Shown here: one piece after another, positions 5,882 to 58,952 of the stretch
Layout: each line of letters opens with the position of its first letter
Numbering within the stretch: the first letter of the stretch is position 1
From: Candidatus Rokuibacteriota bacterium
GTDB lineage: Bacteria > Methylomirabilota > Methylomirabilia > Rokubacteriales > CSP1-6
Direction of reading: 5' to 3'
Length of the DNA stretch: 64,000 bases
Assembly (NCBI GenBank): GCA_030647435.1
Contig: JAUSJX010000152.1
Location: forward strand, 1 to 64,000
Program-made: the position numbers and the translations under genes
The notes under the pieces: generated by a model
The model's database searches: none
What the model was told of the DNA's origin: nothing
Seen by the model: the letters and a program-made list of their open reading frames with translations, nothing else

Positions 5882-7342
5882 GTGCCCATGCCCACCACAC
5901 CGTTCCGTTCGGCGAAGGAGCTGGCGGCCGAGATCCGCCGGAAGAAGATCGGCTGCCTCGAGCTGCTGGATCTCTACCTCTCGCGCGTCGAGAAGCACAA
6001 TCCGGCGCTCAACGCCATCATCGCCACCGACGTCGAGGGCGCGCGCAAGCGGGCCCGGGCCGCCGACCGCGCGCTCGCGCGCAAGCAGGTGTGGGGGCCG
6101 CTCCACGGCGTGCCGATGACGATCAAGGAGTCCTACGACGTCGTCGGCATGCCGACCACGTGGGGCGTGCCCGAGCTGAAGGACAACTTCCCGCCGCGCA
6201 ACGCGCTTGCCGTCGACCGCCTCCTCGGCGCGGGCGTGGTGCTCTTCGGCAAGACGAACGTGCCGATCTACCTCGCCGACTGGCAGAGCTACAACGCGAT
6301 CTACGGCACGACCAACAACCCGTGGGACCTGTCGAAGGTGCCGGGGGGATCCTCGGGCGGCTCGGCGGCGGCGCTCGCCGCGGGGCTGACCGGCATCGAC
6401 GCGGGCAGCGACATCGGCTCGTCCATCCGGAACCCCGCCCACTACTGCGGCGTCTACGGCCACAAGCCGACATTCGGCGTCGTCCCGCCGCGGGGCCAGG
6501 CGCTGCCTGGGCGTCTCGCGCAGGGCGACATCTCCGTCATCGGCCCGCTGGGGCGGAGCGCCGAGGATCTCGAGATCGGGCTCGCGGTCATGGCGGGGCC
6601 CGACGAGATCGACGCGGCCGGGTACAGGCTCACGCTGCCGGCGCCCCGGCAGAAGGCGCTCCGCGACTTCAAGGTCGCCGTCATGCTGACCGACCCCAAC
6701 TCCGAGGTGGACGCCGAGGTGCAGGCGAGGGTCCAGGCGGTGGCGGACTTCCTTGCGAAGAAGAAGGCGCGCGTCAGCGACAGGGCGCGGCCGGACATCG
6801 ACACGAGCGAGGCCCAGCGCGTCTACATCCACCTGCTGCGCGCTGCGACGTCCGGCCGCCAGACGCAGGAGGAGTTCGACAAGAACGTCCAGGCCGTGCG
6901 CGGCTTGAGCGCGAACGACGCGAGCTACTACGCGCGCATGCTCCGCGGCAATACCGGCTCGCACCGCGACTGGCTCGCGGCCAACGAGGCGCGGCACAAG
7001 ATGCGCTGGAAGTGGGCCGAGTTCTTCAAGCAGTACGACCTGCTCCTCTGCCCGGCGGCGGCGTCGGCGGCTTTCCCGCACGACCAGCAGGGCGAGCGCT
7101 GGGAGCGGACCATCGAGGTCAACGGCCACCGCGTGCCCACCACCGACCAGCTCTTCTGGGCCGGCTACTCGGGCATGGCGTATCTGCCATCCACGGTGGC
7201 ACCGGCCGGTTTCACCAAGGCGGGGCTGCCGGTGGGCGTGCAGATCATCGGCCCGCAGTACGGCGACCGCGTGTGCATCCACATGGCGCGGCTGCTCGAG
7301 CGCGAGTACCAGGGTTTCGTTCCCCCGCCGGACTACGCATGA
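5882..7342 (+). CDS. amidase signature family hydrolase
   Basis: Protein of 486 residues with the full amidase-signature core: Lys82 (GVPMTIKES), the Gly/Ser-rich loop PGGSSGGS with cis-Ser157, and nucleophile Ser181 in GSDIGSSIR. This Ser-cisSer-Lys triad hydrolyses amide bonds. An AGGAGG at 5871-5876 precedes two possible starts, GTG 5882 and ATG 5888. The protein has no signal peptide and should be cytoplasmic. Its stop lies next to the aldo/keto reductase start, so the genes are probably co-transcribed. It could be a GatA-like amidase by family, but no gatB or gatC neighbours exist, so a catabolic role is more likely. Confidence 0.9.
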
Positions 7343-7356
7343 GCGAGGATCGTCCA

Positions 7357-8343
7357 ATGGAACATCGCACGCTTGGGAAGAGCGGACTCCGCGTCTCGGC
7401 CATGGGGCTCGGCCTGATGTCCATGTCCGGCACCTACGGCAAGAGCGACGACGAGCAGTCCATCCGCGTCATCCACGCCGCCCTCGACCGTGGCGTCGAC
7501 TTCCTCGACTCCTCGGACATGTACGGCTGGGGGCAGAACGAGACGCTGCTCGGTCGCGCCCTCAAGGGACGGCGGAAGGGCGTCGTGGTCGCCACCAAGT
7601 TCGGCAATGTCCAGAACCCGGACGGCAAGGGCAACCTCGTGGACGGCAGGCCAGGGTATGTGGCCCAAGCCTGCGACGCGAGCCTCAAGCGGCTCGGCGT
7701 TGACGTCATCGATCTCTACTACCAGCATCGCGTGGACCCCAAGGTGCCCATCGAGGAGACCGTCGGCGCCATGGCGCGGCTCATCGAGCGTGGGAAAGTC
7801 CGGCACCTGGGTCTGTCAGAAGCCGCGCCCGAGACGATACGGCGAGGGCATGCCGTCCACCCGATCGCCGCCGTGCAGAGCGAGTACTCGTTGCTCTACC
7901 GCCAGCCGGCGGAGGACAGCATCGCCACCTGCCGCGCGCTCGGCATCGGCTACGTCGCCTACTCGCCGCTGGGGCGCGGACTCCTCTCCGCGACGATCAA
8001 GCGCACGGCCGACATCCCGGAGGACGACCGCCGCCGGCAGCACCCGCGCTTCCAGGACGCCAACCTCGACCACAACATGGCGCTGGTGGCCCGCATCGCG
8101 GAGATCGCTTCGAGCAAAGGCTGCACGCCCTCCCAGCTCGCGCTGGCGTGGCTGCTCGCGCAGGGCGCGGACATCGTGCCCATCCCCGGAACCAAGCGCC
8201 TCGAGTATCTCGAAGAGAACCTGGGCGCGCTCGCGGTGGCGCTGACCCGCGACGACCTGGCGCGCCTCGACGAGGCCATGCCGCCCGGCGCGGCCAAGGG
8301 CACGCGCTACCCCGAGGCACAGATGAAAGCCGTCCAGCTCTAG
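7357..8343 (+). CDS. aldo/keto reductase
   Basis: Protein of 328 residues from ATG 7357, which has a GAGGA site eight bases upstream. An earlier ATG at 7339 overlaps the amidase stop and is the alternative. The catalytic tetrad is visible: Asp51, Tyr56 (DSSDMYGWG), Lys81 (VVATKFGN) and His124 (YYQHRVD). The late [13 protein letters not shown] motif is typical of the AKR13-like bacterial group. It should reduce or oxidise a carbonyl/alcohol with NADPH. It is in line with the amidase and the downstream dehydrogenase. Confidence 0.92.
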
Positions 8344-8359
8344 GAGGGCGATCCCGACC

Positions 8360-9223
8360 ATGGCCAAGCGGCGCGTGGTGTTGACCGGGGCGGCGGGTTA
8401 CGTCGCCCAGCGCATGTTCAAGGAACTGGGCGAGCGGTGGGACCTCGTGCCGATCGACGTCCGCCCGACCACGCGCGACGGCAAGCCGGTGCCCGGCCTC
8501 GTGGTCGCCGACCTCACGAATCCCGACCGTAACGCGTACCGGCAGCACTTCAAGGGCGCCGACGCCGTCATCCACTGCGGCTTCGTCAGCGCCCCGGGCC
8601 TGGACGCGACCACCTGGCAGGATAACGGCGACGCCAAGTTCTGGGCCGAGCACAAGAACATCGCACTCGCCTACAACGTGTACCGGACGGCGCTCGAGGA
8701 GGGCGTCCGCCGCGTCGTCGTCGCCTCCTCCAATCACGCCGCCGACTACTACGAGCGGCTGATCTGGGCGGGCAAGATGGAGATGGTGACGCCGGACATG
8801 CCGCACCGGTCGGACAACTGGTACGGCTGGGCCAAGGCGGCCTACGAGCTGCTGGGCTTCGTCTTCGCCACCGGCAAGGTAGACGGCCGCAAGCTCGAGA
8901 TCGTCCAGTGGCGCATCGGCGGCCCGCGCGACGACGACATCGACCAGGTCAAGCCGGGCGACATCAAGGTCATGCACCGGGCCCTCGGCGCCTATCTCTC
9001 GCGCCGGGATCAAATCCAGCAGGCCATCCGCATGGTCGAGGCGGAGAACATCGCCGACGCGCACGGCGTGCCGTTTCTCATCGTCTACGGCATCAGCGGC
9101 AACACGCACCGCTTCTGGAGCATCGCCAACGCGCGCGAGAAGATCGGCTACGCGCCGGAAGACGACAGCCAGGTCAACTTCGCCGACAAGATCGCCGCGA
9201 TCGCGCGCGCCGCGAAGCGATAG
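8360..9223 (+). CDS. NAD-dependent epimerase/dehydratase family protein
   Basis: Protein of 287 residues with an N-terminal Rossmann motif (VLTGAAGYVA, residues 7-16) and an extended-SDR active site Tyr155-x3-Lys159 (NWYGWAKAAYE). An AGGAGG lies ten or so bases before the ATG. The serine around VVASSN completes the triad. Extended SDRs act on nucleotide sugars or other hydroxy compounds. The substrate here is unknown. It closes the four-gene rightward unit begun by the transporter. Confidence 0.88.
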   Translation: MAKRRVVLTGAAGYVAQRMFKELGERWDLVPIDVRPTTRDGKPVPGLVVADLTNPDRNAYRQHFKGADAVIHCGFVSAPGLDATTWQDNGDAKFWAEHKNIALAYNVYRTALEEGVRRVVVASSNHAADYYERLIWAGKMEMVTPDMPHRSDNWYGWAKAAYELLGFVFATGKVDGRKLEIVQWRIGGPRDDDIDQVKPGDIKVMHRALGAYLSRRDQIQQAIRMVEAENIADAHGVPFLIVYGISGNTHRFWSIANAREKIGYAPEDDSQVNFADKIAAIARAAKR

Positions 9224-9245
9224 CGGCCGGGCCCCGGAAGGCACC

Positions 9246-10027
9246 ATGACGAGCCCGAGCCACCGCGACATGATCCTCGATCAGTTCAGCCGCCAGGCCG
9301 ACCGTTCTCGACCGCCCCCGGGATCATGGACGAGCAGGCGCTGCGGCAGATCGTCGAGTTCACCGACGCGGGCCCCTAGGACACCGTCCTCGACGTCGTC
9401 TGCGGCGGCGGCATCATCGTCTGCGCGCTCGCCAAAGTCGTCCGCCACGCGACGGGCATCGATCTCACGCCGGCGATGCTCGTGCGCGCGCGAGCGCTCG
9501 CCGCGGAGAAGAAGCTCACGAACGTCAGCTGGAAGCAGGGCGACGTCCTGCCGCTGCCGTACGCCGACGGCTCCTTCTCCCTCGTGACCTCACGCTTCGC
9601 CTTCCGCCACTTCCTCGACCCCAAGGCCCCGCTCGCCGAGATGAAGCGCGTCTACGCGCCGGGCGGGAGGGTGGCCGTGATCGACACCGAGGCCTCGCCC
9701 GACGCCGCCAAGGCCGCCGAGTTCAACCGGATGGAAAAGCTCCGCGACCCCTCGCACGTGCGCGCCATGCCGCTCACGGAGCTCACGGGCCTGTTCGCCC
9801 CGGCGGGGCTGCCGGCCCCGCGCGTGAGCGGCTACGGCCTCGAGAGCAACCTGGAGAGCCTGCTCGGGCGCTCCTTCCCGCTGCCGGGCGACGCCGACAA
9901 GATCCGCGAGATCTTCACCGCCTCGCTCGGCGACGACCGCCTCGGCATCCCGCTGGCGCGCGCCGGCGAGCGCCTCCGCTATGCCTACCCCGTCGCCATC
10001 CTGGTGGCCGACAAGCCCGCCGCGTAG
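9246..10027 (+). pseudogene. class I SAM methyltransferase, frameshifted with internal stop
   Basis: A UbiE-like methyltransferase is spread over two frames. It begins at ATG 9246 (TSPSHRDMILDQFSRQA). One base appears lost near 9302, after which the reading continues as GIMDEQALRQIVEFTDAGP. A TAG stop at 9377-9379 then interrupts it where a Glu codon is expected before DTVLDV. The SAM motif CGGG and the later GGRVAVIDTE motif follow in the second frame through 10027. Two independent lesions suggest a real pseudogene rather than a single sequencing error. It lies just left of the cassette-like region. Confidence 0.8.
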
Positions 10028-10366
10028 AGCGGTCACCGTAGCTGCCCCGCCACAGCCTTGAGGAGGTCGCGGGCAGGGGTTATCCTCCAGACCGTGATTC
10101 TCGGGGCGACTGCCGACACGCACGTTCTCAATCGGGGTCCCGCCGGTGTCCAGAGCCCCGCAGATCGGATGACGACCCTTTGATCCCGCGCCGGGACCCC
10201 CTCCCGATACGCAGACCTCGCATATCGAATATCCTAGGTCTGCATAGCAAGGCGCCCGGCCGCCTAACCTTGCCGGCGAAGCCAGCGTTTCCACAACCCA
10301 ACCGCGCCACAACTATGATGCCTAGGGCCGTGCTAGGCTGTCGGCCCGGGCTCGGTCGGTGGCGCT
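10028..10366. other. intergenic stretch with two small inverted repeats
   Basis: I see no intact gene here. A weak reading from GTG 10094 (VILGATADTHV) resembles the start of a calcineurin-like phosphoesterase but is lost after about 14 residues. Two perfect inverted repeats are present: eight bases at 10211-10218/10236-10243 around an AT-rich loop, and six bases at 10320-10325/10333-10338, just before the first cassette-like gene. Their role is unknown. They could be part of a leader or a decayed recombination site. Confidence 0.4.
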
Positions 10367-11014
10367 ATGCAGTTCAGCCGAATTTCACTTAGCGAGACAT
10401 GGCGCATGGATAAAATGTTGGGGCGGCTTACGACGACGCGCAAGACAGGAGCGGGCCGCTTCCACGAGCATGGCAAGGAGATCGGCTTCGACCTGCTCAG
10501 CTTCTGGCAATGGAGCACGTCGGATCTCGTCAGCAACGTCACCCGGGGACGCTTGGCCGAGTATGTTGTCGCTCGTGCCCTGGGCATGGCATCAGAAGGA
10601 GTCCGCGACGAATGGGCCGCGTTCGATCTCGTGACTCCATCGGGCATCAAGGTGGAGGTGAAGTCGGCCGCGCACGTTCAGAGTTGGCACCAACGGGCAC
10701 TGTCGCCTGTGAGCTTTGTGGTTCCTAAAACGTTGGCGTGGGACGCAGACACGAACGTGCAGGCTCGGGAAGCACGCCGTCAGGCCGACGTCTACGTCTT
10801 CGCGCTATTGGCGCATGTCGACAAGGCGACGATCGATCCCCTCGACCTCGGCCAGTGGCGATTCTACGTGCTTCCCACCTCGGTTCTCGACGGTAGGAGT
10901 CGAAGTCAGCACTCAATCACACTCAAATCACTGGAGCGATTGGCCGGACTACCGGTGGAATACTCGCGCGTCAGCGATGCGGTCGAGCGGGCGGCGGGAA
11001 GAGCGGCTCGCTAA
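10367..11014 (+). CDS. PD-(D/E)XK-like hypothetical protein (cassette-like gene 1)
   Basis: Protein of 215 residues. Residues 61-100 contain a nuclease-fold pattern: Glu65 in GRLAEYVVARAL, Asp87 in AAFDLVTPSG, then Glu97-Val-Lys99 in IKVEVKSA. This arrangement is typical of PD-(D/E)XK enzymes, including restriction-like nucleases, but the family is not one I can name. Base composition is visibly less GC-rich than the flanking metabolic genes. No ribosome site is obvious; starts at 10367 or at the later Met codons are possible. It is followed at once by an attC-like hairpin. Function could be DNA cleavage or a degenerate relative. Confidence 0.6.
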   Translation: MQFSRISLSETWRMDKMLGRLTTTRKTGAGRFHEHGKEIGFDLLSFWQWSTSDLVSNVTRGRLAEYVVARALGMASEGVRDEWAAFDLVTPSGIKVEVKSAAHVQSWHQRALSPVSFVVPKTLAWDADTNVQAREARRQADVYVFALLAHVDKATIDPLDLGQWRFYVLPTSVLDGRSRSQHSITLKSLERLAGLPVEYSRVSDAVERAAGRAAR

Positions 11015-11080
11015 GCCCGCGGTCGAGCGGACCGCTGGCTCGCATTCGCTCGCGGCGGCCGCTCACCGCGGGCGTTAGGC
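11010..11080 (+). repeat. attC-like imperfect hairpin 1
   Basis: Starting at the stop codon of the preceding gene, 11015-11023 pairs perfectly with 11065-11073 (9 bp). After a bulged C (11024), 11025-11030 pairs with 11059-11064. After a bulged A (11031), 11032-11035 pairs with 11055-11058. The right arm ends in GTTAGGC (11074-11080), the canonical integron R' core site. The expected left core seems to have lost one base (CTAAGCCC instead of CTAACGCCC). Unpaired bases on one arm only are a hallmark of attC. Confidence 0.7.
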
Positions 11081-11096
11081 GTCAGCAGGAGAAGAG

Positions 11097-11588
11097 ATGG
11101 AGCCCGCATGGTTCAAGTTGCTCAAGCACTGGCAGCGCTCGAACCGCTTCGCACTCACGATTCCGTTCCTGTTCGGCGCCCTACGGAACTGGCCAAGCCA
11201 GCCGTTGGGTACGGGGCTGAGCGATAGCGAGCAAATGCGAGCGCTGATCGGGTCACTTCGCGACGATGCACCCGACGGCGTCATCCTCCGCTTGTACAAG
11301 TGCGATAGATTTCAGGAACTCGCTTTGGCACCTGTCTATGGGATCCCGGGTTATTGCATACCTGTACCTTCGACAAGTCGAGCCCAGACGGCGCTCTATG
11401 TTCAACAAGGCATGGTGCCCAGCGCGGAGGCTCTGTTCGAAGGACTCGTAGATGAGCTCCTACAACGGTACGGTGACGCAATTCGAGTTCAGCGGTTCTC
11501 GTTTCGCGCCGGTAAGTTCCAGACGTTCAACGACGCGGACTATGCGCAAATCGCGAGCGCATTGACGCTTCCCGATGAAGACGCCTAA
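11097..11588 (+). CDS. hypothetical protein (cassette-like gene 2)
   Basis: Protein of 163 residues with an AGGAGAAG site just before ATG 11097. I do not recognise the family. It is soluble, with no signal peptide, and has mixed alpha/beta character. The gene fills the space between two attC-like hairpins almost completely, the compact layout expected of a single-gene cassette. Codon use is less GC-rich than in neighbouring metabolic genes. Confidence 0.6.
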   Translation: MEPAWFKLLKHWQRSNRFALTIPFLFGALRNWPSQPLGTGLSDSEQMRALIGSLRDDAPDGVILRLYKCDRFQELALAPVYGIPGYCIPVPSTSRAQTALYVQQGMVPSAEALFEGLVDELLQRYGDAIRVQRFSFRAGKFQTFNDADYAQIASALTLPDEDA

Positions 11589-11685
11589 CCCTTCCATCGA
11601 ACGGACCCACAACGGCGGGGCACGTTTGCTCGCTTCGTCACGGGCAGCGGCACCGTTGCGGTCCGCTCATGTCAAACGGTTCGGC
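11583..11685 (+). repeat. attC-like imperfect hairpin 2
   Basis: The left core GCCTAAC (11583-11589) overlaps the stop codon of cassette-like gene 2. It pairs, apart from one mismatch, with GTTCGGC at 11679-11685. Inner stems are 11602-11607 with 11660-11665 (CGGACC/GGTCCG) and 11611-11615 with 11653-11657 (AACGG/CCGTT), separated by unpaired bases. The loop is about 37 nt. The right core departs from GTTRRRY at one position. Confidence 0.6.
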
Positions 11686-11745
11686 GGACTGGTTTGTTGG
11701 TTGAAATCCGTGGATTTGCAACTCTTTGGCATGGAGGAATAGAGC

Positions 11746-13068
11746 GTGTCAACGGTCTTCGTTTTGGGTGCCGGCGCGTCAATCGGGGCAAAGCCCGGAG
11801 GCAGGACAAAGTTCCCTGGTACAAACGAACTAGTCGAGCGGATCAGAGAGATCGTTTGCGAAAGGGAGGATTCCTACCTCCCGGCGTTGGCCCTTTACCT
11901 GGCTCGGTTCGCGCCCGTTCGGGATATCACTCTAAAGGCTGGCAGACTTCACGCCGACTGGGACCGGACCAATGTCGAAGAGCTTTACGCAGCGATCGAG
12001 TTCGAGAGCCGCATCACCGATCACCTAATGCTAGCGAGCGGGGACCGGGGTTCGGGCACCCAATTCTTTCAGGAGTATTTCTCCGGGCCTTACCGGGATG
12101 CCGTCACGCAGTTGCTGCGCGGTCCGTATCAAGATTGGATGCGTGCGTGCTACTCGGCTTCTTACGGCAGCGAGCCTTTCCCCCACCTCCATGAGAACTT
12201 CCTGCGGATCGTCAAGATGGAGTTACTCGACGCCATCGCCCATACACTTGGGGTGTTGTCGGAGGAAGAGGACACGTCGAACTTTTCTCGCCTGGCACGG
12301 CACTTTGAAAAGGGCGACACCGTCATCACGTTCAACTACGACCTCCTGGTCGAACAGCACCTGACCCGGGAGCGCCCAGCGGACTGGTCCTACCTTACGG
12401 GGTACGGATTTCGACCGACCTCGGAGAAGTGTGATTTGCGTTTTGCCGGGGATGCTCCCAACCATCCCTCAACGTTTAAGGTGCTGAAGCTTCACGGCTC
12501 CAGCAACTGGCACTTTCGGTTCGTCCAGGGTACGGGGGATGGTCCCCCCGGTTTCGTCGAGGGTTACCGCACTGTCCCGGAACCCATTGGTGTAGGGAAC
12601 CGCATTCGCGACGTTCGTCCAGCGTTCTTCCAAGCTACTGACAACTTCTTCAAACGAGTGGTCGTGGAAGGGGAACCCGGAGGGTACTACGAGCGGTTTA
12701 TGATCCCGCCCAGCACGTACAAGGCAGAATACAACTTCTCTGCCCAGTTCCTCCACGACCCAACGGGAAGTCCTCTACCGCTCGGCAGTTCAACCATGTG
12801 GCTACCGCAATTGCTGTACCGACTCGCGCTGCAAGCCCTCGCGGCTGCGGAGAGGATCGTGTTCATTGGCTTCAGCATGGCACCTGCCGACACGTCGATT
12901 CGGATGCTCTTCCGCGCGGCAGCGGATGCAAATTCGGCCCTGCGGCTTGTTGAAATCGCAGACCCGTGTGCTAACGTAGCTAGCCGCATCAAAGCCGTTC
13001 TTCCGAGGGCGCAGAGCTATAAGCGTGTGAGGTCTTTCGGGGAACTCCTGGATGAATGGAAGGTGTAG
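11746..13068 (+). CDS. SIR2-domain protein, candidate NAD-hydrolysing defence factor (cassette-like gene 3)
   Basis: Protein of 440 residues from GTG 11746, with GGAGGA seven bases upstream. SIR2-like features are the N-terminal GAGAS motif (residues 8-12), TFNYD with Asn197 and Asp199, and LHGSSNW with catalytic-position His250. Near the C-terminus is FIGFSMAPADT. Stand-alone SIR2-like proteins of this kind occur in prokaryotic antiphage systems, where they deplete NAD, and cassette arrays often carry such genes. The role here is inference. The gene has no partner beside it, so it would act alone or be part of a scrambled system. Confidence 0.75.
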   Translation: MSTVFVLGAGASIGAKPGGRTKFPGTNELVERIREIVCEREDSYLPALALYLARFAPVRDITLKAGRLHADWDRTNVEELYAAIEFESRITDHLMLASGDRGSGTQFFQEYFSGPYRDAVTQLLRGPYQDWMRACYSASYGSEPFPHLHENFLRIVKMELLDAIAHTLGVLSEEEDTSNFSRLARHFEKGDTVITFNYDLLVEQHLTRERPADWSYLTGYGFRPTSEKCDLRFAGDAPNHPSTFKVLKLHGSSNWHFRFVQGTGDGPPGFVEGYRTVPEPIGVGNRIRDVRPAFFQATDNFFKRVVVEGEPGGYYERFMIPPSTYKAEYNFSAQFLHDPTGSPLPLGSSTMWLPQLLYRLALQALAAAERIVFIGFSMAPADTSIRMLFRAAADANSALRLVEIADPCANVASRIKAVLPRAQSYKRVRSFGELLDEWKV

Positions 13069-13089
13069 GCAGCGATGCCAAGAAGTTTG

Positions 13090-13190
13090 CCGAACTAGGT
13101 GCTGCACCTGACCGGGGCCGCCCTACTGGGTTTGCGCGACATCAAACTCTTGCAGCGGCCCCGGCAGGTGAGCTTGGTCGTTCGACGGCA
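13090..13190 (+). repeat. attC-like imperfect hairpin 3
   Basis: A 16-bp stem with a single bulged A (13112) is formed by 13106-13111 with 13166-13171 and by 13113-13122 with 13156-13165. Flanking it, GCCGAAC (13090-13096) can pair with GTTCG...GGC (13181-13190), which carries a two-base insertion. The loop holds GTTTG/CAAAC (13131-13135/13144-13148). It lies 21 bases after the SIR2 gene, the same position as the two hairpins before it. Confidence 0.6.
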
Positions 13191-13272: not shown

Positions 13273-13671
13273 ATGTTCAAGAGGATCGACCACGTGGAGA
13301 TTGTCACGGACCAGCCGGAGCGAACCGTGGAGTTCTTCACCGGGGTACTCGGGTTCAAGATCAGATCACGCGACCGGATCGACGGCTCGCCTCTTGGCGT
13401 GCCGATGAGCCTTGTGTACCTGGACCTGGGTGGCACGACAGTCGAGCTCATTTCGTACGAGGGCGCTTCCGTCGAGCCCGCCCCACGAAACGAGCACCTT
13501 GGATACCGTATGATGGCGCTCGAAGTCGACGACATGCAGACAACGGTCGAGTACCTGAGAACGAAGGGGATCGAGATCGTCTGGGGGCCGAAAGTTCGGG
13601 AGAAGTACGCCAGAGCGGAGATCTGCGATCCCAACGGCTACCACATCGAGCTCAGGCAGTGGTTCCCCTGA
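13273..13671 (+). CDS. VOC-family (glyoxalase-like) protein
   Basis: Protein of 132 residues with AGGAGG eight bases before the ATG. It has the single-domain vicinal-oxygen-chelate fold, two beta-alpha-beta-beta-beta repeats. Candidate metal ligands are His7 (RIDHVEIV), Glu58 (TTVELIS), His75 (NEHLGYRM) and Glu126 (YHIELRQW). Such proteins include glyoxalase I, methylmalonyl-CoA epimerase and dioxygenases. With no partner gene the reaction cannot be told. It lies beyond the last attC-like hairpin and has none of its own. Confidence 0.88.
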   Translation: MFKRIDHVEIVTDQPERTVEFFTGVLGFKIRSRDRIDGSPLGVPMSLVYLDLGGTTVELISYEGASVEPAPRNEHLGYRMMALEVDDMQTTVEYLRTKGIEIVWGPKVREKYARAEICDPNGYHIELRQWFP

Positions 13672-13675
13672 GTGA

Positions 13676-13840
13676 TCGGGGTTGACCCGCCCCCAGTTTC
13701 GCCTCCGGGTTGGAGAGGTGAGAGTGTTCTATGACGTCACGCGCGAAGCGGTTGAAGTCCTCGCCATCGTCACGAAAGCTGAAGCGGCGCGTTGGCTTGC
13801 CGACCGCGGGACGCCGGGTGCGCCAGGCGGCGCTGGCTGA
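13676..13840 (+). pseudogene. RelE/ParE-type toxin, C-terminal remnant
   Basis: In the frame starting at 13676 the translation contains RPQFRLRVGEVRVFYDV and AVEVLAIVTKAEAARWLA, the C-terminal half of a RelE/ParE-superfamily mRNA interferase. It stops at 13838-13840. An in-frame TGA at 13673 and the adjacent VOC stop mean the first half of the toxin is missing. The remnant overlaps the antitoxin reading frame, as in intact toxin-first modules. The sequence match is short but distinctive. Confidence 0.75.
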
Positions 13841-14063
13841 GGTCAAGGACGACCTCTCGCGATTCCTGCGCCTGGCGGAGTCCGAGGAGATCCTCATCAC
13901 GCGGCACGGAAGGCCTGCCGGCGTCCTGATCGGATTCGGGACGGAGGATGACTGGTTCGACTATCGTTTGGAGCATCATCCGGAGTTCCTCCGGCGAGTC
14001 GCGGAAGCGCGGGCAGCCTTCAGGAGTGGGCGCGGTGTCCGGCTCGAGGATCTCCCGTCATGA
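13818..14063 (+). CDS. Phd/YefM-type antitoxin
   Basis: The conserved part is ALAEVKDDLSRFLRLAES followed by ITRHGRPAGVLIGF and DDWFDYRLE, typical of type II Phd/YefM antitoxins. I prefer GTG 13818, giving 81 residues, the normal family length, and the usual overlap with the toxin end. The ATG at 13731 would add an unrelated arginine-rich leader read through the toxin remnant. With the toxin decayed, this antitoxin is an orphan that may still bind DNA or neutralise a related toxin elsewhere. Confidence 0.8.
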   Translation: MRQAALAEVKDDLSRFLRLAESEEILITRHGRPAGVLIGFGTEDDWFDYRLEHHPEFLRRVAEARAAFRSGRGVRLEDLPS

Positions 14064-14090
14064 TTGACAGCGCGAGCTGGTAGCCTCGGC

Positions 14091-14864
14091 TCACTCGCCG
14101 CGGAAGATTGGCCGGCGCTTCTCCAGCATGGCGCGGCGGCCCTCGCTCGCGTCGGCGCTCTGCCGCGCGCGCGCGGACGCCTCGTCGAGGTCGGCGTGCG
14201 GGATGCTCTCGCGGAGCGACACCGCGCGGAGGATCGTCGCCTTGATTCCCGCGAGGGCCAGCGGCGCGTTGCGGGCGATGCTCTGCGCCAGCTGATAGGT
14301 CGCAGCTTCCAGCTCCGCTGACCCGACGACCTGGTGGACCATGCCGATCTCCAGCGATCGCTTGGCGTCGATGGGCTGGCCGGTGAAGAGGAGGTGCCGC
14401 GTGTGGGCCGGGCCGATCACCTCGACCAGCTTCTGGCCGAGCGTGAAGGGGACGACGAGGCCGATCCGCGCCAGCGGCATGCCGAAGCGCGCAACTTCCG
14501 AGGCGACGCGCAGGTCGCAGTGGAGCGCGAGCTCGCAGCCGCCAGCGATCGCGTCGCCGTGGACCATGGCGATCGTCGGATGTCTCGAGCGCTCGACGCG
14601 CTGGAGGACCTCGATGACGCCGCTCTCGGGGTCGCCCGGAACGCCGCGCCGCTCCTCCATCTCCTTGAGGTCCATGCCGGAGCAGAAGGCGGAGCCGGCA
14701 CCTCGCACGACCACGACGCGGACGTCGCGGTTGCCGTCCAGCTCCTCGAAGCGGGCGCGCAGCGCTGCCAGGAGCGCCATGTTCATGGCGTTGCGCTGGC
14801 CGGGGCGATTGAGCGTGACAGTGGCGACGCCGCCGTCTACCGCGCAGAGCACCTCGTCTGACAT
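14091..14864 (-). CDS. enoyl-CoA hydratase/isomerase family protein
   Basis: Protein of 257 residues from ATG 14864, ten bases after the upstream gene's stop. A longer frame to 14951 is not conserved-looking. Crotonase features are the oxyanion-hole segment SAFCSGMDLKEM and AGGCELALHCD with Glu111. The second catalytic glutamate of true hydratases, expected 20 residues later, is Leu131 in FGMPLARIG. It is therefore a crotonase fold but may be an isomerase, hydrolase or other variant. It is co-directional with the luciferase-like gene. Confidence 0.88.
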   Translation of the reverse strand: MSDEVLCAVDGGVATVTLNRPGQRNAMNMALLAALRARFEELDGNRDVRVVVVRGAGSAFCSGMDLKEMEERRGVPGDPESGVIEVLQRVERSRHPTIAMVHGDAIAGGCELALHCDLRVASEVARFGMPLARIGLVVPFTLGQKLVEVIGPAHTRHLLFTGQPIDAKRSLEIGMVHQVVGSAELEAATYQLAQSIARNAPLALAGIKATILRAVSLRESIPHADLDEASARARQSADASEGRRAMLEKRRPIFRGE

Positions 14865-14874
14865 GGCGTGTCTC

Positions 14875-15888
14875 CTAGGAGCGGGTGGATGGCGCCAGCC
14901 CGCGCATGGCGTCGAGCACGAGAGCGCGCCGGCGCGCCGGGTCGGGGTCATTGGTCTGGAACTGAAGGAAGGCCGTGTCGATGCCGTGGTCGAGGTAGCG
15001 CTGTACCCGCGCCCGGATCGCGGGCAGGGGGCCGCGCACGATCAGCTCCTCGACAACCGTCGACGGGATGGCCGCGACGGCGCCCTTGCGATCCCCGGCC
15101 GCCCACTTGTCCCACATCGGCTGGAGCGCGGGCGTGCGGCCGAGCCATTCCTGGTAGGCGCGGTAGACGGGCACGTTCATGTAGGCGGCGATATGCCGCC
15201 GGATGATTTGGTCCGACTCGGGGCCGAGCGTGTCCAGGTTGACGACGAGACGGGCGGTCACCTCGATGGCTTCGGGGTCGCGGCCGGCCTTCTGCGCCGC
15301 ATCGCGCACGATCGCGACGGACTTCGGGACATCCTCGGGCGAGTTCCAGTTGAGGATGACGCCGTCGCCGACCTCGCCGGCGACCCTGAGCATGCCGGGG
15401 CGGAGGGCCGCGATGTAGATGGGGACGGGGCTCGAAGGCACGCGCGTCAGCCTGAAGCCGTCCACCGAGATGGTCTGGCCCTTGAAGACGACGCGCTCGC
15501 CCGCCAGCATCGATCGGAGCACCTGCGCCGTCTCACGCACGCGGGTGGCGGGCTTGACGAAGGCGCCGCCGTTCCACGACTCCACGATCAGCTGGGAGCC
15601 CGAGCCGATGCCGAGGATGAAGCGGCCGGGGGCAAGATCCGCGAGCCCGGCGGCCGTGTTGGCGAGCGTGGCGGGCCCTCGCGTGTAGACGTTGACGATC
15701 GCGGTGCCGAGCCGCATGCCGGTGGCCGTCCCGATCACGGCAAGCGGGGTGAAGCCGTCCACGCCGTCCACCTCGAACGACCATGCGTCCGTGTAGCCCA
15801 GGCGCTCCGCCTCGCGGGCGACATCCGCTAGTTCCGGGAGCGGAAAGCCGTCCATCGGCACCGACAGCGACCATCGCTTCTTTCCCAT
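14875..15888 (-). CDS. LLM-class flavin/F420-dependent oxidoreductase
   Basis: Protein of 337 residues with bacterial-luciferase-like TIM-barrel motifs: AREAERLGYTDAWSFE near the start, DLAPGRFILGIGSGS around residue 90, and VPIYIAALRPGMLRVAGEVGDG in the middle. Members use FMN or F420 to oxidise or reduce diverse substrates. This subclass, with ALRPGMLR, resembles F420-dependent methylene-H4MPT-reductase-like and monooxygenase proteins common in actinobacteria and Rokubacteria. It is probably transcribed with the crotonase after it. Confidence 0.85.
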   Translation of the reverse strand: MGKKRWSLSVPMDGFPLPELADVAREAERLGYTDAWSFEVDGVDGFTPLAVIGTATGMRLGTAIVNVYTRGPATLANTAAGLADLAPGRFILGIGSGSQLIVESWNGGAFVKPATRVRETAQVLRSMLAGERVVFKGQTISVDGFRLTRVPSSPVPIYIAALRPGMLRVAGEVGDGVILNWNSPEDVPKSVAIVRDAAQKAGRDPEAIEVTARLVVNLDTLGPESDQIIRRHIAAYMNVPVYRAYQEWLGRTPALQPMWDKWAAGDRKGAVAAIPSTVVEELIVRGPLPAIRARVQRYLDHGIDTAFLQFQTNDPDPARRRALVLDAMRGLAPSTRS

Positions 15889-15947
15889 AGACCCGGAGTC
15901 TAGCCGCTTTCGCCGCGCGCCGCTCGATGGTGATAGAATTCCCGCCC

Positions 15948-17111
15948 ATGACGCTGTTTCCCGGATTCACGCTGCCCGACGAGCTCCGCATCCTCCGCGA
16001 GCAGATCCGCCGCTTCATCCAGGAGGAGATCATCCCGCTCGAGCAGCGGCTGGACCCCGACGCGCCCGATATCCCCGACGAAGACTTCGCGCGCCTGTCT
16101 GCCAAGACCAAGGCGGCGGGGCTCTGGGCCCTCGGCGCCAAGGAAGAGTATGGCGGCGGCGGGCTCGACACCTTCAGCATGTGCGTGGCGCTCGAGGAGA
16201 TGTCCCAGCACCGCATGGGCCTCTACAACCCCGGCTGCGGTGTCTTCGGCCGCTACCCGCCGCCCGCGATCTGGGCCGGGAGCAAGGCGCAGATCGAGAA
16301 GTACGCGGTGCCGGCCATCCGCGACGGGGCAAAGACCTTCTTCGCGATCACCGAGCCGTCGGGCGGCTCCGATCCCGCGGGCGCTATCCAGACGCGCGCC
16401 GAGAAGCGCGGCGACCGCTGGGTGCTGAACGGGCGCAAGGTGTTCATCTCGCGCGCCCACGACGCGCCGTGGGGGATCGTGTGGGCCCGCACCGACAAGG
16501 CCAAGGGGCGCGCCGGCATCTCGTGCTTCATTCTCGAGCGCGGCGCTCCCGGCTTCACCGCGCGGCCCATCCGCACGATCCGGACCTCGGCCATTCCCAA
16601 CGACGTCGTCTTCGAGGACTGCGAGATCCCGGCGGAGAACCTCATCGGCGAGGAAGGGCAGGGGCTCGACCTGGCTTTCGATCTCCTCGTGAAGCAGCGC
16701 TTCCCCTACGCGGCCTGTAACCTGGGCGTGGCCGTCGCCGCGCACCGGATGGCCGTGGCGCACGCCAAGCAGCGCTCGACCTTCGGCGCTCCGCTCTCCC
16801 AGCGCCAGTCGATCCAGTGGATGCTCGCCGACGCCGAGGTGGAGATTCGCGCGGCGCGCTGGCTCACGTGGGAGGGCGCGTGGAAGGCCGACCGCGGCGA
16901 GGACGCGCGCGTCGAGGCCTCCATCGCCAAGCTCTACTCGAGCGAGGTGCTCGGGCGCGTGATCGACGCCGCGGTGCAGATCCACGGCGGCTACGGCGTC
17001 AGCAAGGAGTTCCCGCTCGAGCGCTGGTACCGAGAGGCCCGCGTGCGCCGCATCGGCGAGGGCCCGTCCGAAGTGCACCGCATGGTCATCGCCCGGTCTC
17101 TCTTCCGGTAG
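15948..17111 (+). CDS. acyl-CoA dehydrogenase
   Basis: Protein of 387 residues from ATG 15948; an upstream ATG at 15927 adds seven residues. No ribosome site is seen, but TAGAAT lies ten bases ahead of the ATG, which would suit a near-leaderless start. ACAD motifs are FFAITEPSGGSDPAG, the RxTFGAPL-like KQRSTFGAPLSQRQ, and QIHGGYGVSKE followed by RIGEGPSEVHR. That last stretch keeps the glutamate used as catalytic base by medium-chain-type enzymes. It should oxidise an acyl-CoA to enoyl-CoA with FAD and pass electrons to ETF. First of a three-ACAD run. Confidence 0.92.
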   Translation: MTLFPGFTLPDELRILREQIRRFIQEEIIPLEQRLDPDAPDIPDEDFARLSAKTKAAGLWALGAKEEYGGGGLDTFSMCVALEEMSQHRMGLYNPGCGVFGRYPPPAIWAGSKAQIEKYAVPAIRDGAKTFFAITEPSGGSDPAGAIQTRAEKRGDRWVLNGRKVFISRAHDAPWGIVWARTDKAKGRAGISCFILERGAPGFTARPIRTIRTSAIPNDVVFEDCEIPAENLIGEEGQGLDLAFDLLVKQRFPYAACNLGVAVAAHRMAVAHAKQRSTFGAPLSQRQSIQWMLADAEVEIRAARWLTWEGAWKADRGEDARVEASIAKLYSSEVLGRVIDAAVQIHGGYGVSKEFPLERWYREARVRRIGEGPSEVHRMVIARSLFR

Positions 17112-56635: not shown

Positions 56636-57930
56636 GTGCTCGAGCGCTGCTTCAAGAACCCCCTCACTCTGCACCGTCTCCGCAGCGGGCCTGCGGGGCC
56701 GTTTCTCGACGGCTTCGCGGAGTCCATGTGCGCCGACGGCTACTCGTCCGAGACGGGCGGCGTCTACCTGTACGCCGCCGACCACCTGGGCCAGTGGGCC
56801 GCGCGGCGGGGCGTTGCCATCGTGGATCTCGACGAGGATCTGCTCGCGCGTTTTGTGCGTCATCTGCCCCGGTGCCGATGCCGCGGCAGCAAGCGCAGGG
56901 GCCACAAGCGGGTGCCGTTCCGCATCCACGCGTTCCTGCGGTACCTGCGCGACACGGACGTCGTGACCACGTCCGCGCCGGAGGCGACCCGTCCGCCGCT
57001 GGTGACCGAGTACGGCGTGTGGATGCGCGACCGGCGCGGCCTGGCCGCCACGACGATGGCCCGCTCGGTGCCGGTGGTCCAGGCCCTGCTCGCCACCGTG
57101 GGCGACGATCCCACCGGGCTCGATGCCGCGGGCGTGCGCCGGTTCGTGCTCGAGTACATCCGGCAGCACGCGCCCGCGTCGGCCGGCTGGGTCACGACCA
57201 TCGTCCGATGCTTCCTGCGGTGGCTCGTCGCGCACGGTCGGTGCTCGCCAGACCTCGTCGATGCCGTTCCCACGATGCCCACGTGGCGGCTGGCCACGCT
57301 CCCCCGCGACCTCCCGGATGCCGATGTGGAGCGCATCCTCGAGGCCTGTGATCGCCCCAGCCCCGTGGCGCGGCGCGATCGCGCTATGCTGCTGCTGCTC
57401 GCCCGCCTGGGTCTGCGCGCGGGTGACGTCGTCGCGCTCCGGCTCGGCGACATTGAGTGGGGGCGGGGACGTCTCCGCGTCGTCGGCAAGAGGCGGCGCG
57501 AGACACGGCTGCCGCTGCCTCAGGACGCGGGCGATGCGCTGCTCGATTATCTCACGGCCGAGCGTCCCGCCGCCGCCACGGACCACGTCTTCCTGACCGC
57601 ACGCCCTCCCATCCACCCGATTCGCTCGAGCGGCGTGCGCGATGTCGTCTGTCGCGCGATCGGGCGCGCCGGCGTTCGGGCGCCGTCCCGGGGGACCCAC
57701 GTCCTGCGCCATAATGCCGGGCCCGGCATAACCGCCACACCTTTGCCGTGCGGGCCCTGGAGGCGTGTCCGCACGGCGGGAGCCCCGTCGGCTGGCGCAT
57801 GCGCGTGCTGTCGATCGACCTCGGCCACCGCAACCTCGCCGACACGTGCTGGTACCTGCACGCGACGCCGCAGCTGATGCAGGGCGTCGCCCATGCGTGT
57901 GAGCGGTTCCTCGAAGGAGGTGTCCGATGA
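56636..57930 (+). pseudogene. tyrosine recombinase 1, broken by palindromic insertion
   Basis: Starts at GTG 56636. The N-terminal SAM-like domain, then catalytic Arg in LGLRAGDVVALRLGDI and Lys in VVGKRRRETRLPL, are intact up to HVLRH (the H-x-x-R box). There a 26-base insertion shifts the frame. The natural C-terminus continues in another frame as TFAVRALEACPHGGSP to LGHRNLADTCWYLHATPQ, with the catalytic His and nucleophile Tyr, ending at 57930 and overlapping the next gene by ATGA. Without the insertion it would be an intact recombinase of about 420 residues. Confidence 0.8.
57707..57737 (+). repeat. 21-bp palindromic insertion with 5-bp flanking duplication
   Basis: CGCCA (57707-57711) is repeated at 57733-57737. 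Between them, 57712-57732 holds the 16-base perfect palindrome ATGCCGGGCCCGGCAT with TA/AA edges. The insertion splits the His-x-x-Arg box codon of the recombinase. Its TTATGC/GCATAA-like ends resemble the palindrome at the element's left end. Confidence 0.75.
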
Positions 57931-58952
57931 CGCCGATCGCTCCACACATCACCGCGTTCCTCCAGCAGCGGCTCGCCGTGGACCGGCGGGCCAGCCCGCA
58001 CACGTGCGACACCTACGCCTACGCCTTTCAGCTCCTCTTCCAGTTCATGAGCCGAGCGCTCGGCGTGGCGCCCGCCGACCTCGCGCTGGAGCAACTCGAC
58101 GCGCCCCTCGTGCTGCAGTTCCTCGACCATCTCCAGCAGGAGCGGCACAACGCCCCGCGCACGAGGAACGCCCGGCTGGCCGCCGTCCGCTCCTTCATGC
58201 GGTTCGTCGAGTACCGCGTGCCGTCGACGCTCGATCAGGTCCGACGCGTTCGGGCCATCCCCGCGCAGAGGACCGACACGCGGATCGTGCGGCACCTCAG
58301 CGTCGAGGAGCACCGCGCGCTCCTCGATGCGCCGGAGCCGACCACGCGCCTCGGCCTCCGCGACCGCGCCATGCTGCTGCTGGGGCTCGCGGGCGGCCTG
58401 CGCGTCTCAAAGCTCGTCGGCCTGCGCCTGGACGAGGTGCAGTTCACCGGCCGCTACGTCGACGTGCGTGTGCGCGGCAAGGGACGCCGCGAGCGCGCCC
58501 TGACGCTGTGGAAGTCGGTGGGCGACACGATCCGCGCCTGGCTTGCCGTGCGCGGCGACGCGCCCGCCCCGGAGCTGTTCCTCAACGCCTGGGGCCAGCC
58601 CATGACGCGCTCCGGCTTCGAGCGCGTGCTCACCAAGCACGTCGCAGCGGCCGCCGCGCGCTGCCCGTCGCTCCGGGCCAAGCGTGTCTCGCCGCACGTG
58701 CTGCGGCACACCTGCGCGCTCAACACGCTGCAGGCGACGCGCGACCTGCGCAAGGTCTCGCTGTGGCTCGGCCACGCCAGCACGCAGACCACCGACATCT
58801 ACTTGCAGGCCGACCCGACGGAGAAGCTCGAGGCGCTCGCGGCGATGACGCCGCCGGCGCTGCGGCCGGGGAAGTTCCGGCCGCCCGACCGACTGATCGC
58901 CGCCCTGCGCACCCCCACGGTTATGCGGAGTCCCGACGCGGTCAACCCATGA
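57927..58952 (+). CDS. tyrosine recombinase 2
   Basis: Protein of 341 residues with GGAGG before ATG 57927, overlapping the first recombinase. The full catalytic set is visible: Arg159 (GGLRVSKLVGL), Lys185 (RGKGRRER), His257 and Arg260 (PHVLRHTCAL), His283 (LWLGHAS) and Tyr292 (TTDIYLQ). The N-terminal core-binding domain runs from residue 6 to about 100. It should cut and join DNA at the TATGCGGA repeats, probably together with the first recombinase. The gene ends 24 bases before the right inverted repeat. Confidence 0.9.
   Translation: MTPIAPHITAFLQQRLAVDRRASPHTCDTYAYAFQLLFQFMSRALGVAPADLALEQLDAPLVLQFLDHLQQERHNAPRTRNARLAAVRSFMRFVEYRVPSTLDQVRRVRAIPAQRTDTRIVRHLSVEEHRALLDAPEPTTRLGLRDRAMLLLGLAGGLRVSKLVGLRLDEVQFTGRYVDVRVRGKGRRERALTLWKSVGDTIRAWLAVRGDAPAPELFLNAWGQPMTRSGFERVLTKHVAAAAARCPSLRAKRVSPHVLRHTCALNTLQATRDLRKVSLWLGHASTQTTDIYLQADPTEKLEALAAMTPPALRPGKFRPPDRLIAALRTPTVMRSPDAVNP

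Follow-up and report, generated by a model that had tools for sequence, protein, structure and literature searches.

Evidence for a decapitated chromosomal integron in a Candidatus Rokuibacteriota genome, with cassettes most likely exchanged in trans

Integron gene cassettes are interchangeable genetic units, best known for the spread of antibiotic resistance, and attC sites are known to have two unpaired bases on the L'' arm. According to established integron biology a cassette would enter as a circle and IntI would recombine the folded bottom strand of its attC with attI, from which a uniform orientation of the array would follow. In the class 1 integrons of plasmids intI is divergent from the cassettes, the cassettes carry resistance genes and the integrase is intact. 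In the sedentary chromosomal integrons of Treponema, by comparison, intI is transcribed toward attI (PMC3607928). IntegronFinder defines a cluster of attC sites that has no integron integrase as a CALIN (PMC9024848). The integrons of archaeal MAGs (PMC9668308) come from another domain but resemble those we describe here in being mostly CALINs, in having attI directly downstream of intI, and in sharing cassettes between distant hosts. The terms Rokubacteria, Methylomirabil- and NC10 are absent from the text of that paper, Rokuibacteriota is not among the integron-host phyla listed in PMC8618304, and full-text searches for integrons together with Rokubacteria or Methylomirabilota, with a scope short of subscription papers and preprints, returned nothing on point. 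The sequence-only reading of this DNA had spoken of a lineage in which integrons are little described; that is fair for the literature searched, and we provisionally regard the host lineage as new for integrons, but the lineage is rich in integrons and attC sites are close to universal in the class, with matches in 88 of its 95 genomes, although a genome is to be counted with caution where its matches are weaker and number no more than two.

We have found that positions 10118 to 13186 of the window (the whole stretch of 64,000 nucleotides analysed, from a soil bacterium whose MAG comprises 5.79 Mb in 176 contigs, is 98% complete with 2% contamination, and includes the window on contig C152) are best explained, with high confidence, as a decapitated chromosomal integron whose cassettes were most likely exchanged in trans. 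We refer to the present genome as G000 and to its sister species as G001 to G004, of which G001 is the closest; all genomes compared are MAGs. The features of the locus are as follows, with attC scores from our covariance model R1.

8360 to 10097, no strand assigned: left chromosomal flank, present in G001 and, piecewise, in G003, where the copy stops exactly at 10097
10118 to 10183, plus strand: intI remnant, the last 21 codons and stop (THVLNRGPAGVQSPADRMTTL); tblastn with the genome's complete IntI gives 94% over 18 aa, E 5e-5
10184 to 10388, plus strand: attI, 205 bases, from an alignment of 20 intI-tail/attI loci
10389 to 11074, plus strand: cassette 1; own-end complementarity 6/6, R1 match
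10406 to 11014, plus strand: gene 1, its start moved here from 10367; a possible nuclease of the PD-(D/E)XK type, with no family above cut-off
11009 to 11080, plus strand: attC1, R'' CGCTAAG and R' GTTAGGC, both unpaired L'' bases; 64.8 bits, E 5e-13
11075 to 11679, plus strand: cassette 2; own-end complementarity 6/6
11097 to 11588, plus strand: gene 2; its only relative in the class is 32% identical
11583 to 11685, plus strand: attC2, GCCTAAC ... GTTCGGC, inner stem weakened and partly degenerate; 22.7 bits, E 0.0044
11680 to 13180, plus strand: cassette 3; a 94% nucleotide-identical copy with exact cassette ends in another genus
11746 to 13068, plus strand: gene 3, SIR2-like domain; PF13289 at 1.5e-7, above cut-off, and PADLOC Aga_SIR2 at 6.9e-10
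13089 to 13186, plus strand: attC3, GCCGAAC ... GTTCGAC, both unpaired L'' bases; 48.6 bits, E 4e-9
13273 to 13671, plus strand: glyoxalase/VOC gene not followed by an attC; same-site copy in G003 (95%), absent there in G001
13678 to 14063, plus strand: 5'-truncated RelE-type toxin frame, then a Phd-type antitoxin gene; the toxin gene is complete in G001

That the three genes differ from their neighbours in composition, as had been noted from the sequence, is borne out: the G+C content of the array is 0.596 against 0.70 in either flank, and GC3 is 0.67–0.71 for genes 1 to 3 against 0.91–0.95 for the nearest flanking genes. Just left of the integron stub, at 9246–10027, lies a methyltransferase-like frame that is seemingly broken (9246–9587 and 9476–10027 overlap), and near the end of the window, at 57311–58817, is a pair of tyrosine recombinase genes, which belong to the Phage_integrase family and not to the integron integrases. 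In the RelE/Phd segment, whose gene names come from the translations as read rather than from a family search, the antitoxin gene is intact. The segment recurs at 85–86% identity in G002, G007 and G019, and the contigs that bear it in G007 and G019 also bear intI sequence and attC sites.

The same site in sister species holds other cassettes. G001 aligns with the window over 3.4 kb at 91% identity (window 7001–10384, comprising left flank, intI stub and attI) and again at 91% identity over window 13678–16999. Between the two alignments it carries dioxygenase-like and ABM-like monooxygenase genes, an attC (34.5 bits), and SnoaL-like and complete RelE-type toxin genes, in a segment with no match to the cassettes of the window, and the start of its first cassette coincides with the attI core. 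G003 lacks both the stub and the attI: its left flank breaks off at 10097 and is followed by a PIN-type toxin pair, then by an attC that scores 43.8 bits, a gene for an ABC-type binding protein and the VOC gene (gene names in G001, G003 and G094, a genome discussed below, are from translations as read, not from family searches). Because G000 and G001 have the stub in common, together with its junction on the left, the local intI was most simply cut away before these two separated. The cassettes behind the common attI would then have diverged after the loss of intI, and because intI would have been lost before the split, the cassettes differ and the G001 array begins exactly at the attI core, we infer that recombination most likely took place in trans, through an integrase encoded elsewhere.

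The main rival to action in trans, and one that we consider unlikely though well short of negligible, is differential loss, in which a long ancestral array contained every cassette, all of them older than the loss of intI, and deletions left G000 and G001 with different portions of that array. Degraded integrons do lose cassettes, the authors of PMC9024848 regard CALINs as degraded integrons, and both the attI core and attC2 of the window have decayed. Nevertheless, the first cassette of G001 sits at the exact attI core, and precise joins of this kind would again need an integrase from elsewhere. The sequence-only reading had named conservation of the three genes in fixed order in relatives without hairpins as a point against integron cassettes; this is not what we see, since none of the three is present in any of the four sister species searched (G001–G004), which also speaks against differential loss.

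On our preferred reading, exchange in trans behind a decapitated platform, the attI of this strain probably takes up no more cassettes, because its core is mutated (CTT) and attC2 is weak. Recombination between attC1 and attC3 might still remove cassettes 2 and 3 together, in a single block. A point against recognition in trans is that the attI subtype of the window differs from that of the complete integron of this genome, on contig C156.

The remnant at 10118–10183 aligns with 19 other loci and has a counterpart at the same site in G001, and the attI copies at the 20 loci are conserved up to the core, mostly GAATTCTAG^TTRG, past which the sequence differs at every locus. The core in the window reads CAC^TTAGCG where most other copies have TAG^TTRG (CTT, not GTT), and the four bases ahead of cassette 1 are TCAC as against CTAG in most other attI copies, a junction less clean than that of G001. 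In addition to this loss of the G at 10388, the R'' box of attC1 has AAG for AAC, such that pairing is preserved; the match may be a coincidence or may reflect a cassette-borne end. An extra degenerate attC considered at 10262–10338 (GCCTAAC...GCTAGGC) was rejected, as it falls inside attI by the alignment and is not among the R1 matches.

The array had been described from sequence as an integrase-less, CALIN-type cluster with no integrase nearby. A profile search does find no intI within 40 kb of the array on its contig, and there is no working integrase at the site, but the 21-codon remnant had been overlooked. The three attC sites all lie inside 2.2 kb, where a CALIN calls for two or more such sites with gaps under 4 kb between them, and with no functional integrase alongside, a profile-based program would very probably label the array a CALIN. 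It differs from one in keeping the end of intI, whose last 21 codons alone remain beside attI, and a conserved attI, which stands at the head of the array despite its mutated core triplet. Since the array lies directly behind these two elements it is, as far as its sequence can tell, a degraded ('decapitated') integron platform and not a free cassette cluster. We consider it very improbable that cassettes were dropped here off-target by an integrase elsewhere and that an integron never stood at this site. The empty result of the profile search would fit such an origin, and relatives may harbour off-target or single-cassette sites, for example a lone SIR2 cassette in G033, but the order and spacing of the intI 3' end, attI and array are as in intact integrons of the family.

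All attC calls were made with one covariance model, R1. Its training set consisted of 21 attC sites near integrase genes or integrase fragments, all in genomes of the class other than G000. In the training alignment the R and L stems covary strongly (89% of cells paired; covariation score 0.39 versus 0.11 shuffled), and two columns on the L'' arm are unpaired. A check of the array with an attC covariance model had been proposed on first reading, and R1, our own-trained model, returned the three matches listed above (64.8, 22.7 and 48.6 bits), whereas the top score is 15.4 bits in the rest of the 64 kb window and 19.2 bits in the negative control, 2.0 Mb of GC-rich Streptomyces and Mycobacterium plasmid DNA; as a positive control, class 1 integrons on plasmids have attC sites that score 16.6–50.7 bits. 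Taken alone, attC2 is only modestly above the negative-control level; its R boxes are good and its position is right. DNA folding gives z-scores of -3.3 for attC1, -1.7/-3.0 (top/bottom strand) for attC2, which folds better on the bottom strand than on the top, and -3.5/-3.8 for attC3. By the model scores and the fold z-scores, then, the long imperfect hairpins first noticed behind each of the three genes are real and specific. The unpaired bases ascribed to them are both present in attC1 and attC3, with attC2 partly degenerate, and the first hairpin does end in GTTAGGC, which is the R' box of attC1. Overlap with stop codons holds for genes 1 and 2, which stop within R'' boxes (11012–11014 and 11586–11588), and gene 3 stops 20 bases ahead of its hairpin. 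An Rfam search at a relaxed threshold returned nothing relevant.

The ends of a cassette provide a further line of evidence. The first bases of a cassette (TTRRRY) and its own R'' box derive from one circular molecule and are complementary. In the window the cassette starts pair with their own R'' boxes at 18 of 18 bases (TTAGCG/CGCTAA, TTAGGC/GCCTAA and TTCGGC/GCCGAA), compared with only 4, 5 and 5 matching bases between each R'' and the start of the next cassette; the means over 35 further cassettes from the family are 5.5 bases for the own end and 4.5 for the neighbour. Cassette 3, moreover, occurs on contig C86 of G033, which belongs to another genus of the same family, at 94% nucleotide identity over 11679–13182 only. 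The likeness runs from GTTCGGC in attC2 (11679) to the GTT in attC3 (13182), and nothing beyond these points aligns. In G094, a congener of G033, flanks like those of G033 enclose a different pair of cassettes, whose attC sites score 25.1 and 22.1 bits, so that G033:C86 (L201:5597–7101) and G094:C45 (L216:432–2590) hold different cassettes at one site with G^TT joins. That site has no recognisable intI, and its left side is without obvious likeness to the attI family found here.

The attC model, the own-end complementarity, the precise transfer of cassette 3 between genera and the different cassettes of G001 together make the identification of these genes as integron gene cassettes, which was inference when first proposed, strongly supported at the level of sequence. 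An ordinary operon or genomic island with transcription terminators would account for hairpins right after stop codons and for co-directional genes, but it is ruled out by the GTT-to-GTT homology of cassette 3, in which the hairpins bound exactly the transferred unit, and the hairpins have no T runs behind them and fit the attC covariance model including its two unpaired bases.

Gene 1 probably starts at the ATG at 10406 and not at 10367, as 10367 lies within attI and cassette 1 begins at 10389; the alignment with its best plasmid homologue begins at residue 13. A D...E-x-K pattern (FDLVTPSGIKVEVKSA) suggests a PD-(D/E)XK nuclease, for which family support is marginal, PHROGs and PADLOC giving marginal nuclease matches only. 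Relatives of gene 1 occur on actinobacterial, Bacillus-group and Pseudoalteromonas plasmids, and the only R1 match near the Pseudoalteromonas copy is about 6 kb off. The sole relative of gene 2 in the class, in G019, also lies between two attC sites. Pfam and NCBIfam returned no family for genes 1 and 2, plasmid searches returned no relatives of genes 2 and 3, IMG/VR scans returned none for the three array proteins, and AlphaFold single-sequence models (mean pLDDT 34 for gene 1 and 42 for gene 2) are too low in confidence to use. Gene 3, whose matches to defence SIR2 families reach 6.9e-10, probably encodes an anti-phage effector, such that its cassette, if expressed, would serve phage defence; that it acts by cleaving NAD is a fair guess from its family.

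Complete integrases are encoded elsewhere in these genomes, in G000 on contig C156 (472 bits) and in G001 on contig C123. The C156 IntI is 53.8% identical to IntI1 of class 1 integrons, whose attC sites R1 also recognises, and its nearest named integron integrases, at 76–90% identity, are from 'Candidatus Rokuibacteriota' MAGs, by which the host very probably belongs to that phylum. G000 has about 40 attC matches over about 18 contigs and ten loci at which an intI 3' end is followed by a conserved attI (C156, C79, C64, C134, C60, C96, two on C168, C48 and window 10118–10388). Only at C156 is intI full-length; the other nine copies are cut from the 5' side to varying extents, and the attI copies fall into at least three subtypes. 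We tentatively suggest, at somewhat less than an even chance, that these form a distributed integron, in which about ten attI platforms per genome, nearly all with a tail-only intI, would be fed in trans by one or a few complete IntI copies and exchange would be ongoing at many fixed sites simultaneously. Among 60 relatives, 18 have an intI above the family cut-off. In G003 (L101, contig C393, about 742–801) intI is nearly complete with a frameshift beside the catalytic tyrosine motif (IYTHV), and breaks occur in the same short stretch of intI in the C60 and C168 copies of G000 and in the window stub, either by chance or at a weak spot.

A single orientation is common to intI, attI and the attC sites in those intact integrons of the family that we examined, as in Treponema, which is of another phylum; here, in addition, many platforms occur per genome, mostly with an integrase tail only. 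A survey of layouts drew on 80 named integron loci (L121–L200). In 46 of these attC lies near a related intI, 36 being co-directional (intI toward attI) and 10 of the classical divergent type, and on a quick IntI tree two changes suffice to explain the layouts.

The kind of system described here is known. What is new is, provisionally, the lineage of the host, and also the number of platforms stripped of their integrase and the apparent turnover of cassettes at a platform that lacks an integrase of its own. Our findings place integrons in an uncultured phylum for which the literature searched held no earlier description, document the transfer of a single cassette with a probable defence gene between genera, and provide a platform at which cassettes differ between sister species though intI was, on the simplest reading, lost before their split. 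If action in trans is true, then counts of active integrons that rely on an adjacent intI would be underestimates, and many CALINs would be sites still in use and not dead ends.
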